From Actinomycetota bacterium (GTDB lineage Bacteria > Actinomycetota > Acidimicrobiia > Acidimicrobiales > WLNW01), in NCBI GenBank assembly GCA_009699605.1, contig WLNW01000003.1, positions 1 through 49,875 on the forward strand: a stretch of 49,875 bases of DNA. Direction: 5' to 3'. Both the position numbers and the translations under genes were made by a program. This document shows positions 44,117 to 49,083 of the stretch, piece after piece; the first letter of the stretch is position 1; the number at the start of each line of letters is the position of its first letter. The notes under the pieces were generated by a model. It was given only the letters and a program-made list of their open reading frames with translations. It was not told the DNA's origin and did not search any database.

Positions 44117-44131
44117 TTGCCCGTTACGTGC

Positions 44132-44149
44132 GCGGCCGACGTCGGCCGC
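44132..44149 (+). terminator. Hairpin terminator after acs/HAD genes
   Basis: Perfect 18-base palindrome GCGGCCGACGTCGGCCGC followed by TTTC, 15 bases after the stop of the HAD gene. Short U-tract, so termination is likely but not certain. Confidence 0.5.
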
Positions 44150-44194
44150 TTTCGCGTGGCTTTCGTCGGGCCGTCGCACGATACAACTCAGCGT

Positions 44195-44229
44195 TCACCC
44201 TTCCCGAGCCATCGTGGAGCAAAGGGTGA
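44195..44229 (+). promoter_or_regulatory. Inverted repeat in htpX leader
   Basis: TCACCCTT at 44195-44202 pairs with AAGGGTGA at 44222-44229, leaving a 19-base loop, just upstream of the htpX Shine-Dalgarno (GAAGGAAG). It could be an operator or an mRNA stem regulating this stress protease; no known motif matched. Confidence 0.3.
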
Positions 44230-44242
44230 CGAAGGAAGACTC

Positions 44243-45094
44243 ATGAAGAACTACGGAAAGACTGCAGTCCTGTTGGCCGCCCTTGGTGGGCTGTTCGTCG
44301 TTCTCGGAGGGGCCTTCCTCGGGCAGGGCGGTCTCTACATCGGCCTGGCACTCGGCCTGGTCATGGTCGGTGGTTCGTACTGGTTCAGCGACAAGCTCGC
44401 CATCAAGTCGGCCCACGGCGTCCAGGTCGACCGCACCCAGGCCCCCGATTACTACCGAATCGTCGACGAGCTCGCCCAACGAGCGGGCATGCCCATGCCG
44501 CGCCTGTTCATCGCCCCGTCCGATCAGCCGAACGCGTTCGCCACGGGCCGCAACCCGAAGCACGCCGCGATCTGTGTGAACCAGGGTCTGTTGCAACTCA
44601 TGTCGTGGGACGAAGTGCGCGGTGTGCTCGCCCACGAGCTCACCCACATCCGCAACCGCGACATCCTCACGGGGTCCATCGCCGCTGCGGTGGGCATGGC
44701 CATCACCTTCGGGGCTCGCATGGCCATGTGGGGGGCCATGTTCAGCGGTGGCCGTGATCGCGATCGTGACGACAACCCCTTGGTGTTGTTGGCCACTGCG
44801 CTCCTTGCGCCCATCGCCGCGATGATCATCCAGATGGCCATCAGCCGCAGCCGCGAGTTCCAGGCCGATGCCGGCGCGGCCCGCCTCATCGGTGACGGCG
44901 AGCCGCTCGCCCGGGCGTTGCTGCGCCTCGAGGCATACGCAGGCCGCATCCCGTCCGACGTGAACCCCAGCCAGGCATCCAACTACATCGTCAACCCCCT
45001 CAGCGGGCGCAAGGTGACGTTCGGGAACCTATTCTCGACCCACCCGCCCGTCGAGGCCCGTGTCGCCCGTCTCCGTCAGGGCAACTGGGCCTAG
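44243..45094 (+). CDS. htpX: Zinc metalloprotease HtpX-like
   Basis: 283 residues from ATG at 44243 with GAAGGAAG upstream. Two N-terminal membrane helices (about 8-24 and 27-45), then HELTHIRNRD, the HExxH zinc site, and two more hydrophobic segments, with SREFQADAGAARL giving the third ligand Glu. HtpX is a membrane-embedded protease that degrades misfolded membrane proteins. Its stop overlaps that of convergent yajQ by the shared palindrome CTAG. Confidence 0.95.
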   Translation: MKNYGKTAVLLAALGGLFVVLGGAFLGQGGLYIGLALGLVMVGGSYWFSDKLAIKSAHGVQVDRTQAPDYYRIVDELAQRAGMPMPRLFIAPSDQPNAFATGRNPKHAAICVNQGLLQLMSWDEVRGVLAHELTHIRNRDILTGSIAAAVGMAITFGARMAMWGAMFSGGRDRDRDDNPLVLLATALLAPIAAMIIQMAISRSREFQADAGAARLIGDGEPLARALLRLEAYAGRIPSDVNPSQASNYIVNPLSGRKVTFGNLFSTHPPVEARVARLRQGNWA

Positions 45095-45579
45095 TCGCGG
45101 AAGTTCTCGAACTGGAGCGGGATGCCGAAGTCATGCTCGCGGAGTGCGGCGATCACCTCTTGGAGGTCGTCTCGCTTCTTGCCGGTGACCCGCAGCTGAT
45201 CACCCTGGGTCTGTGACTGGACACCTTTGAGCCCGAGGCCCTTGATGTGGGTGTTGATGGCCTTGGCCTTGTCAGACGAGACGCCGGCCTGCAACTTGAC
45301 CACCTGGCGCGCGGTGCCCTTCGACGCTTCCTCGATCTTGCCGTAGTCGAGGACCTTCAACGACACCTTGCGCTTGACCATCTTCTCCTCGAGCAGCTGG
45401 CGTGTCGCGGCGAGGCGGTCCTCGGTGATCGACGCGAGCGTGATTGCATCGGTTCCGAGCTCGATCGAGGTGTTGGTGTCCTTGAAGTCGAAGCGGGTCG
45501 TGATCTCGCGCGACGCCTGGTCGACGGCGTTGCGGAGCTCCTGCATGTCGATCTCGGAAACCACATCGAAGGTAGGCAT
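45091..45579 (-). CDS. yajQ: YajQ family nucleotide-binding protein
   Basis: 162 residues, the normal length. MPTFDVVSEIDMQELRNAVD and TTRFDFKDTNTSIE at the start and FGIPLQFENFRD at the end are characteristic. Members bind nucleotides, and a Xanthomonas homologue is a cyclic di-GMP effector; the role here is unknown. It lies 18 bases downstream of the murD-like gene on the same strand. Confidence 0.95.
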   Translation of the reverse strand: MPTFDVVSEIDMQELRNAVDQASREITTRFDFKDTNTSIELGTDAITLASITEDRLAATRQLLEEKMVKRKVSLKVLDYGKIEEASKGTARQVVKLQAGVSSDKAKAINTHIKGLGLKGVQSQTQGDQLRVTGKKRDDLQEVIAALREHDFGIPLQFENFRD

Positions 45580-45597: not shown

Positions 45598-46929
45598 TCA
45601 GCCGGGGGCTGCCACGCAGTAGCGGTCGATGGCCGCGACGAATGCCGCGGCCCGCTGTCGATAGTCGAGGTACGTACCGAAGCTGGGTGCGGCAGGGGAG
45701 AGCAGCACCACACCGCGAGGAGCGGCCCATGCGTAAGCGGCCCGCACCGCGGCGTCGAGATCGTCGGCCGCGCGCACCTCGACCGCGGACGGCAGCACCG
45801 CGTCCGCGAGCTCGCGGCGGATGCGATCCCCCGATGCCGGGATGGTGAGCACCAGCAGGGGTGCTTCGCGCGTGGCCAACGCTTCACCGAGCGAGTGATA
45901 GTCGATGCCTCGATCGAAGCCGCCCAAGATCACCGCCGTTCGCTGCGCGGCGAACGCGTCGATAGCTCGCACGGTCGGGAGCACGTTGGTTGACAACGAG
46001 TCATCGACGAACTCGACCTCGCCGATAGTGCGTACGGTCTGGAGCCGGTGCTCGAGCCCCGGAAAGCCGCGGGCGGCTTCGGCGAGCGAATCAGGATCCG
46101 GGTCGAGGCCGAGGGCCCGAAGGCACCGGTATGCGATCTCGGCGTTGTCGAGGTTGTGGTCGCCGCGGACGCCAAGGGTGCGATGCCAGTCGGTGCGTCG
46201 GGTCGGGTCGGGGCTGACCCATTCGACCTGCGGTCCGAGCAGTGACGCCCGTTCGACGAGAGCCGGGCTCGTGCTCGACGCGATGGTGAGCCGGGCCCCG
46301 GGTTGTGTGCACAGCGAGAGCTTGTCCCGGTAGTAGCCCTCGACCGAGCGGTGCCAGTCGAGGTGATCTGGGTGCAGCGAGGTCACGGCCACGATGGGCG
46401 GCGACACCGCAACGTCGGTGGCTTGGTAGCTCGACGTCTCGATCACCCAGTACCGGGGCTCCGGGGCTCCGGCTGTTCGTGCAGGGTCATATGGGGGCCG
46501 GCCGATGTTGCCGCCGACGAACGTGGGGAAGCCGAGCCCATCGAGCAAATGGCCGAGCATCGCCGAGGTGGTGCTCTTGCCCTTGGTGCCCGTGACCGCG
46601 ACCACCCGCTCGATCGGCGCGCCCTGCAGCCACAGCCCGAGCCCGCCGAGCACCGGCACGCCCGCGGCGTCGAGCGCCGCCGCCGCCGGGAGGTAACGGC
46701 TGATGCCGGGCGACTTCACAACCGCGTGGCAGCGCAGCAGCGCTTCGAGCCCGCCGTGATCGATGGCGAGCACCTCGGCGTCTTCGTAGGTCGGCTTCGC
46801 GTCGTCGACCAGCACCACGCGGGCGCCGAGCGTGCGCAACATGCGGATCGAGGCCTCGCCCTCGACGCCGAGGCCCCACACACCGACCTCCGCGTTGCGG
46901 AGGTCAGCCCACGAGATGGCGGGGCGCAT
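45598..46929 (-). CDS. murD: MurD-family UDP-MurNAc-L-Ala ligase, probable L-glutamate-adding MurD2
   Basis: 443 residues from ATG at 46929, overlapping the murL-like gene by 26 bases. VTGTKGKSTTSAML is the Mur ligase ATP loop, GDHNLDNAEIA the Asn motif and HRLQTV the His region. In D-Glu-adding MurD the substrate-binding motif is DSKATN with a key Lys; here it is DSLSTN with Leu312. The downstream SPACASFDQF region reads SPAAPSFGTY. Together with its MurL-like neighbour this suggests MurD2, the Xanthomonas-type enzyme that adds L-Glu to UDP-MurNAc-L-Ala in peptidoglycan synthesis. Canonical MurD activity cannot be excluded. Confidence 0.85.
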   Translation of the reverse strand: MRPAISWADLRNAEVGVWGLGVEGEASIRMLRTLGARVVLVDDAKPTYEDAEVLAIDHGGLEALLRCHAVVKSPGISRYLPAAAALDAAGVPVLGGLGLWLQGAPIERVVAVTGTKGKSTTSAMLGHLLDGLGFPTFVGGNIGRPPYDPARTAGAPEPRYWVIETSSYQATDVAVSPPIVAVTSLHPDHLDWHRSVEGYYRDKLSLCTQPGARLTIASSTSPALVERASLLGPQVEWVSPDPTRRTDWHRTLGVRGDHNLDNAEIAYRCLRALGLDPDPDSLAEAARGFPGLEHRLQTVRTIGEVEFVDDSLSTNVLPTVRAIDAFAAQRTAVILGGFDRGIDYHSLGEALATREAPLLVLTIPASGDRIRRELADAVLPSAVEVRAADDLDAAVRAAYAWAAPRGVVLLSPAAPSFGTYLDYRQRAAAFVAAIDRYCVAAPG

Positions 46930-48358
46930 ACGAGTCGGGGATGTGATCGGCGCCGATCGGTACGAGCAATGCGTTGATCGCTTCGTCGTCGAGCTCGCGG
47001 TCATCGAGTTCGCGAAGGAGCGCCTCGAGCATTGGCGAGCCGGTGCGGTCGGGCCGTGCGGCGGCGCGCTGCAACGCGGCTCGGCATTCGGACACCTCAC
47101 CCACGCACTCGAACGGCTTCGGCTCGTGGCCGATGTCGAGAAGCGTGCGGAACGACCTGATCGTGTCGGGGTTCTCGAGTGGCTCGCGCCCACCGAACAC
47201 CGCGCGAAGGTCGGCTGCCGCGACGAACGGCGCGAGGATCAGGTCGATGAAGCAGCACTTGTCGCACACGCCGCACCATGTGGCGTGACGCTTCGCCGGG
47301 TCGAGCTGGAAGGCTCGGTTGCAGCTCCGAAAGACCCGGTGATAGTTGGTGAGCTTGGCGAACCGACGAGCGATCGCGAGCTCCGAATAGGGCCGAAGCA
47401 GCGAGAAGTATTCGGGGCCGTCGGTGAACTGATCGGCGAGCGCGGCACGCAACAGCGTTTCGAACTCGGCGCTCTTCGAGTACTGGTGGTTGATCGTGCG
47501 GCCATCGACTTCGAGGTTGCCGGACGACGCCGACCATTCGTTCGACATCACCACCGCCCCGCGCCCGTGCAGCACCGCGATCAGCGTTGCGATGGCCGAG
47601 AGGATGCCGGTGACCGGGACATGGCCGTTGCGAAAACCCAGTTCGCGCGACCGCAGCACTTTTGCATCGAGCTCGCGCTCGGCCCGCAATACCGGAAGGC
47701 CGGTCTCGCGCGCGGCGGCCTCGATGGCCGCGAAACGATCACCCATGCGGCTCAGGATGAACAATGCGGTGTCGGCGTGGATTTGGCGCACCTCGTCGAC
47801 GGTGACGATGGAATCGATGCCGCCACCGAAGGGCACCAGGGGACGATCGAGGTGGACGCCCGTCGCCACCGGTTCCGGTGCGGTCGACGTGTAGTGGAAC
47901 ATGAGGTCACGCAGATCGAGGCCGTTGCTGTACGCGAACTCGCCGAGTCCGTCGAGATAGAACGCCCGCAACATGGTTGCTTCAGCCGGGGTGAGCGGAT
48001 GGTCGCCGAAGTCGATCAGTGGGGGAGCGGCCGCCTTGTAGTACGAGACGCCGGCCACCAGGAACACCAACCGCGCCGCTCGATCGGCGGCGGAGGCGAC
48101 GGAGGCCGGTGCGTCGGGGAGCGGGGCGAATCGGATGTGCTCGACGAACTCGAGCCCATCGAGGCGGTAGTGACACCGCAGCTGCCCGTCCGCGAGGTCG
48201 AGTGCGAACCCGACGTAGTGGAACGCCTTGACCGCGGCCGGGTCGAACCCTTGTGCCGAGAAGGCCGGTGCTGCACGGTCCGGGTCTGCACGGTCCGGGT
48301 CTGCACGGTCCGGGTCTGCACGGTCCGGGTCTGCACGGTCCGGGTCTGCGGTGGTCAC
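46904..48358 (-). CDS. murL: MurL-like UDP-MurNAc-L-Ala-L-Glu epimerase
   Basis: 484 residues. GTG at 48358 with GGAGG five bases upstream is chosen; the longer open frame runs through tRNA-Tyr and cannot be real. LVPFGGGIDS near 174-183 is a PP-loop-type ATP site, and WCGVCDKCCF near 425-434 a Cys cluster; both match MurL, which with ATP epimerises the terminal L-Glu of UDP-MurNAc-L-Ala-L-Glu to D-Glu in Xanthomonas. The adjacent MurD2-like gene supports this strongly. The N-terminus has five ADPDR repeats (about 4-28) not expected in the family. The symbol is by similarity and context. Confidence 0.85.
   Translation of the reverse strand: MTTADPDRADPDRADPDRADPDRADPDRAAPAFSAQGFDPAAVKAFHYVGFALDLADGQLRCHYRLDGLEFVEHIRFAPLPDAPASVASAADRAARLVFLVAGVSYYKAAAPPLIDFGDHPLTPAEATMLRAFYLDGLGEFAYSNGLDLRDLMFHYTSTAPEPVATGVHLDRPLVPFGGGIDSIVTVDEVRQIHADTALFILSRMGDRFAAIEAAARETGLPVLRAERELDAKVLRSRELGFRNGHVPVTGILSAIATLIAVLHGRGAVVMSNEWSASSGNLEVDGRTINHQYSKSAEFETLLRAALADQFTDGPEYFSLLRPYSELAIARRFAKLTNYHRVFRSCNRAFQLDPAKRHATWCGVCDKCCFIDLILAPFVAAADLRAVFGGREPLENPDTIRSFRTLLDIGHEPKPFECVGEVSECRAALQRAAARPDRTGSPMLEALLRELDDRELDDEAINALLVPIGADHIPDSYAPRHLVG
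48272..48346. repeat. 15-base tandem repeat, five copies, in murL 5' end
   Basis: Five exact copies of TGCACGGTCCGGGTC (plus-strand reading) encode (ADPDR)5 near the N-terminus of the MurL-like protein. The unit is a multiple of three, so copy changes keep the frame. Exact identity suggests recent expansion. Confidence 0.9.
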
Positions 48359-48409: not shown

Positions 48410-48417
48410 TTGTGTAG

Positions 48418-48499
48418 TGGGCCGGGGAGGATTCGAACCTCCGTAGGCGATGCCGACGGGTTTACAGCCCGCTCCCTTTGGCCACTCGGGCACCGACCC
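48418..48499 (-). tRNA. tRNA-Tyr (GTA)
   Basis: 82 bases. Acceptor arms GGGTCGG and CCGGCCC pair (one G-U), anticodon loop CTGTAAA gives GTA, a long variable arm as expected for bacterial tRNA-Tyr, and T-arm GGAGG-TTCGAAT-CCTCC. The 3' CCA is not encoded (ACTA follows). Confidence 0.95.
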
Positions 48500-48591: not shown

Positions 48592-49083
48592 TCAGGAGCG
48601 AAGCATGCGCTGCATGAGCGCGACGTCGAGCCACCGGTGAAACTTGCGGCCGACTTCGCGCTCGATGCCCACGAGCTCGAACCCCACCGACCGGTGCAGC
48701 TGGATCGATGCCTCGTGCCCATCGACGATGCGGGCCATCATCGTGTGGAACCCGCGGCTACGTGCGGCCTCGACGGTCGCGGTGAGCAGGAGCTTGCCCA
48801 CGCCTTTGCCCTGATGGCTTCGGGCCACGTACACCGAGTCTTCGACCGTGGTGCGATATGCCGGTCGATCCCGGTACGACGACAGCGACGCGAACCCGAC
48901 CACCTCGCCCGCATGCTCAGCCGTCAGCACCGTGAGTGCCCCAAGTCTCGACGTGAGCCACTGCTGTTGGTCGACGAGGCTGCGAGGAACCATGTCGAAC
49001 GTGTGGGTGGTCTCGGTGACCTCGAGGTTGTAGATGGTGCGGATCGCCTCTGCGTCGGCGATGGTGGCCAGCCGGATGTGCAC
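48592..49083 (-). CDS. GNAT family N-acetyltransferase (phosphinothricin acetyltransferase-like)
   Basis: 163 residues. HQGKGVGKLLL (around 103-113) is the acetyl-CoA pyrophosphate-binding loop; IRLATIADAEAIRTIYN at the start and SIQLHRSVGFELVGIEREVG with KFHRWLDVALMQR at the end match the Pat/YncA-type subgroup that acetylates phosphinothricin, methionine sulfone and similar amines. The actual substrate is unknown. It lies 92 bases upstream of tRNA-Tyr on the same strand. Confidence 0.88.
   Translation of the reverse strand: MHIRLATIADAEAIRTIYNLEVTETTHTFDMVPRSLVDQQQWLTSRLGALTVLTAEHAGEVVGFASLSSYRDRPAYRTTVEDSVYVARSHQGKGVGKLLLTATVEAARSRGFHTMMARIVDGHEASIQLHRSVGFELVGIEREVGRKFHRWLDVALMQRMLRS

Follow-up and report, generated by a model that had tools for sequence, protein, structure and literature searches.

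The DNA stretch of 49,875 bp analysed here (the window; contig C201 of an Acidimicrobiales draft genome) carries two overlapping genes, homologues of murL and murD2, that very probably form the organism's only route of D-glutamate into peptidoglycan, replacing murI and the murD of the dcw cluster. MurD2 would add L-glutamate to the peptidoglycan precursor and MurL would then epimerise the added L-Glu to D-Glu, by way of an adenylation according to the hypothesis of the original authors. Genome content and evolution support this route, which had been put forward from the DNA letters alone in the original prediction, and we infer its two reactions, L-Glu ligation and epimerisation, from the characterised enzymes of Xanthomonas oryzae, Micromonospora and Salinispora. 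Gene content, co-occurrence, residue pattern and fold are observations of the present analysis. The MurD2/MurL pathway was already published by 2017–2021, actinobacteria included, so that the window pair adds a branch to a pathway already known; the Micromonospora and Salinispora enzymes were confirmed in vitro (PMC8788868). Earlier accounts confined the pathway to a fairly small number of genera. The route known from Xanthomonas and Micromonospora is extended here to another bacterial class, the Acidimicrobiia, where this substitute for a cell-wall step that is both essential and a drug target is common and appears to have been swapped in several times.

Both ORFs were located where the original prediction placed them. 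The genes and the sequence elements adjoining or within them are the following:

46904..48358, minus strand: murL homologue, 484 aa, GTG start at 48358, TGA end at 46904
45598..46929, minus strand: murD2 homologue, 443 aa, ATG start at 46929, stop at 45598
46904..46929, minus strand: 26-bp overlap of the murL 3′ end and the murD2 5′ start (from the sequence)
48417..48499, minus strand: tRNA-Tyr, directly upstream of murL (ARAGORN)
48271..48349, minus strand: 15-bp tandem repeat, 5.3 perfect copies, coding for (ADPDR)n at the MurL N terminus (TRF)

In profile searches MurL matches NF041275 (E 4.2e-112, 374.9 bits, profile positions 3–439 of 447), and the best family of the MurD-like protein is TIGR01087 (MurD; E 4e-78), other Mur ligase profiles being weaker; both matches are far beyond chance. 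The window MurD2 has the MurD fold and the ATP-binding motifs. The window MurL falls short of the NF041275 cut-off of 700 bits, which was set for the Xanthomonadales equivalog and is reached by none of the full-length Acidimicrobiales MurL matches, and no Pfam domain was found in it. Standard annotation therefore misses MurLs of this type, and genomes carrying them seem to lack D-glutamate synthesis. The protein is 50–56% identical to same-clade MurLs of other actinobacteria. Its (ADPDR)n N terminus, which has no counterpart in aligned relatives, lies in a segment predicted to be disordered (residues 1–32, pLDDT <50). Three neighbours read by eye have no obvious link to the wall pathway: an HtpX-like membrane protease (44117–45094, plus strand), a YajQ-like protein (45091–45579, minus strand) and a GNAT acetyltransferase (48592–49083, minus strand).

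The host genome (3.45 Mb, a 277-contig draft, 96% complete) was searched for murI and for a second murD, the two checks proposed with the original prediction; a normal murI/murD pair, which would have counted against it, was not found. The murI profile TIGR00067 gives no match in this genome while it does respond in control genomes, and the window gene is the only MurD above the TIGR01087 cut-off. A single weak PF01177 match, considered as a hidden murI, lies in panB and was rejected. Six Mur ligase fragments were assigned by sequence and context to murE, murF, murC, FolC, a MurT-like protein and the window gene. The dcw cluster spans three contigs (mraZ-rsmH-ftsL-ftsI-murE; murE-mraY-ftsW-murG-murC; murC-murB-ftsQ-ftsZ) and murD is absent from the intact mraY-ftsW junction, its site in E. 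coli. Loss of murD in an assembly gap was rejected because mraY, ftsW and murG lie on one contig without it. Among class-IV aminotransferases no D-amino-acid transaminase was found above cut-off; the two candidates were discarded, one being IlvE and the other a PabC/IlvE-like protein adjoining pabB. A broad-specificity alanine racemase might conceivably supply D-Glu to the host, which weighs against the L-Glu route, as do the draft state of the genome and the MurL score below cut-off.

MurL and murI over cut-off exclude each other in the Acidimicrobiia genomes sampled. Full-length MurL was identified in six of 59 genomes of the order, none of them with murI, which exceeds its cut-off in 43. 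A class-wide sample of 296 genomes, each at least 90% complete, contains 50 genomes with MurL, 176 with murI over cut-off and none with both (0/50 MurL genomes against 176/246 others; Fisher p 1e-23, kinship ignored). Among the MurL genomes, G158 alone gives a weak murI match, below threshold. The two genes alternate inside families f7, f15, f17, f19, f23 and f31, and even within genus g69 (MurL in G251 and G280; murI in G128, G163 and G313), which suggests several replacements rather than one. The dcw murD between mraY and ftsW is missing in all six MurL genomes read (the host and five others) and present in two murI control genomes (G044 and G050). Internal TGA stops that appeared in the MurL of some relatives were dismissed as alignment overrun, since the ORFs read run to a natural C-terminal end. 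Eight genomes, each at least 94% complete (G034, G043, G053, G055, G056, G160, G177 and G190), showed neither murI nor MurL; G053, G177 and G190 have stronger, sub-cut-off matches to D-amino-acid transaminases, which the other five lack.

Phylogenetic trees place MurL-linked and canonical MurDs on separate sides of one branch (support 96), the window MurD2 being among the MurL-linked proteins. The window MurL belongs to a 27-row actinobacterial clade (support 100) apart from the Xanthomonas and Micromonospora MurLs; its named members are Acidimicrobiia MAGs, Kineosporia, a Modestobacter MAG and a Frankiaceae MAG. X. oryzae MurD2/MurL (XOO_1320/XOO_1319) and relatives share with the window the adjacency of the genes, the protein families and the lack of murI, but their MurLs are only 39–45% identical to that of the window. 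Micromonospora and Salinispora share its phylum and pathway; the Micromonospora genes, however, are divergent while those of the window overlap in tandem, and the Micromonospora MurL lies on the Xanthomonas side of the tree. In two genomes of one family of the same class MurL and MurD2 are fused in one reading frame (G143, L171:1879-4509, 877 aa; G066, L176:954-3536, 861 aa). The two genes of genome G040 are unlinked and come from different clades: its MurL (L056 on contig C16) belongs to the characterised side and has Asp in place of the second cluster Cys, while its MurD2 (L057 on contig C15) belongs to the window clade. Such partner mixing and the fusions suggest, from sequence comparison, that the window clade and the characterised MurL side use the same intermediate.

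The DSLSTN motif of the overlapping MurD-like ligase, with Leu as residue 312, agrees in full with the original description. Three of its positions correspond to residues studied in other MurDs (alignment to E. coli MurD):

45985..46002, minus strand: DSLSTN, with L312 at the E. coli K319 position
45910..45912, minus strand: R340 at the E. coli K348 position (R358 of X. oryzae MurD2)
46366..46368, minus strand: D188 at the E. coli D182 position (E197 in X. oryzae MurD2)

The canonical set (E. coli MurD and 27 from the order, chiefly from murI genomes) has Lys at both 319 and 348 (E. coli numbering) in 28/28 sequences, with Asp or Asn at 182. In the readable MurL-linked MurDs, position 319 is always Leu, Ile or Phe, and position 348 is Arg in all but L103 (Val). 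Hydrophobic 319 and Arg 348 are likewise found in the Xanthomonadaceae MurD2s read and, as Leu and Arg, in Micromonospora MurD2. Both X. oryzae and Micromonospora MurD2 have Glu at 182; the window MurD2 retains the canonical Asp, as do all 47 window-clade members with a readable MurD2 and 11 other DLR MurL-linked MurDs. Asp182Glu was consequently rejected as a general MurD2 marker, the 182 change not being required for linkage to MurL, and judged from these sequences hydrophobic 319 with Arg 348 is the decisive pattern of MurL-linked MurDs. The comparison over many natural sequences sharpens which MurD residues accompany L- versus D-Glu use. Position 319 had been labelled the D-Glu-binding Lys in the original prediction, which is doubtful because E. 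coli K319 lies near ADP, D182 and K348 being the determinants of the D-Glu site (PMC8788868); on that account L312 is a good marker of the sequence type but no D-Glu-binding position. E. coli MurD K319T accepts L-Glu, and E197 and R358 act as specificity switches in X. oryzae MurD2 (PMC8788868). The window MurD2 has the MurD fold in common with the canonical MurI plus MurD system, from which the organism differs by the lack of murI, the replacement of Lys319 and Lys348 and the location of the gene outside the dcw cluster. The residue pattern at 319/348 and the exclusivity of MurL and murI together support the L-Glu route.

Strict use of L-Glu by the window ligase is not assured, given its Asp at 182 and the altered stereospecificity of the X. 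oryzae MurD2 E197D single mutant (PMC8788868). With Asp 182, Arg 348 and Leu 319 the enzyme might be relaxed and take both L- and D-Glu, MurL still correcting the L-Glu products, so that the route would work without being strict. We regard this as rather unlikely, though worth serious consideration: S. mutans MurD, with Arg at the 348 position, uses L-Glu slightly and is improved by K330T (PMC8788868), and Asp 182 is kept throughout the window clade, whereas L-Glu is the abundant isomer and the genome searches revealed no source of D-Glu, hence no selection for D-Glu use.

Two further readings were weighed. The ligase could be an ordinary D-Glu MurD moved beside an unrelated PP-loop gene, with D-Glu scavenged, provided by a broad racemase or made by an unassembled murI. 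TIGR01087 as best family and the 277-contig state of the draft would agree with this, but it is made very improbable by the replacement of both lysines only where MurL is present, by the 50 MurL genomes without murI over cut-off, by the natural MurL-MurD fusions and by the absence of the dcw murD in the six MurL genomes examined. The two genes might instead serve to make a secondary product or to modify some other glycopeptide, wall D-Glu being made otherwise, and PP-loop/QueC-like scaffolds have indeed often been repurposed (PMC13329287); we consider this extremely improbable, as the genome has no other MurD and the window ligase must therefore perform the MurD step. The L-Glu route through MurD2 and MurL is retained as the preferred reading.

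The MurL motifs of the original prediction, FGGGIDS and CGVCDKC, are present exactly as given and form part of two conserved sites:

47810..47830, minus strand: PP-loop FGGGIDS, residues 177–183 (homologue alignment)
47321..47323, minus strand: C346, first Cys of the putative metal site (homologue alignment)
47255..47275, minus strand: CGVCDKC, residues 362–368, part of C346-x15-C362-x2-C365-x2-C368

PP-loop residues G178, G180, D182 and S183 are invariant in 124 homologues; C346, C365 and C368 are found in 124/124 and C362 in 123/124. Xanthomonadaceae MurLs have the same Cys and PP-loop residues, apart from a K to I change in the window at position 181, which is Lys in most homologues and Ile, Leu, Val or Met in most of the window clade. 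This position varies among PP-loop enzymes generally. The structure of the window MurL was predicted with confidence (pLDDT 92.9, pTM 0.91, 81 sequences). QueC 2pg3 is the only PDB match of the model below E 0.001 (E 1.2e-4, prob 1.00); QueC 3bl5 and Cap9 9nto also have prob 1.0 with weaker E-values. The match to QueC is partial, covering the PP-loop core only (TM-score ~0.64 by target, ~0.3 by query), and the Pfam QueC profile has no significant match to MurL. Aligned by hhalign, E. coli QueC T-C-Y-N-G-F...C-G-H-C-A-A-C pairs with MurL S-C346-N-R-A-F...C362-G-V-C365-D-K-C368, a statistically weak alignment with a single sequence on one side. MurL resembles QueC in its GGxDS-type PP-loop (GGGIDS versus SGGxDS) and in a putative variant of the four-Cys motif, whose first spacing is 15 instead of 8 residues; it also has additional sequence at both ends. 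In QueC the C-x8-CxxCxxC motif is a zinc site, and the enzyme acts on a carboxylate with the help of ATP (PMC13329287); we predict a QueC-like metal site for the MurL cysteines. MurL was described as having no known domains, its authors hypothesising an alpha-carboxyl adenylate (PMC8788868), a mechanism that the QueC-like PP-loop and Cys site would fit. The text of PMC13329287 has no word beginning with "mur", a sequence search found no solved MurL structure, and an incomplete literature search, on which we base no claim of priority, found no publication naming MurL and QueC together. Within this analysis, the QueC-like fold offers a first concrete structural clue to the ATP-driven epimerisation by MurL.

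We lean slightly towards a broader proposal, namely a second, actinobacterial, MurD2/MurL branch in which hydrophobic 319 and Arg 348 would select L-Glu without Asp182Glu, which would several times have taken the place of murI and murD in Acidimicrobiia, and whose MurL would be a QueC-derived, metal-site PP-loop enzyme activating the peptide alpha-carboxylate. If true, this activation would explain the one-way, ATP-driven character of the epimerisation.

Short MurL-like paralogues of ~300 aa, whose match to the profile is confined to its C-terminal half, were observed in G050 (L062:7883-8848), which also has murI and canonical murD, and in G040 (L061:6636-7529). A pair in reversed order, murD2 followed by murL (L097), is present in a MAG labelled Candidatus Saccharibacteria and could reflect misbinning or transfer.
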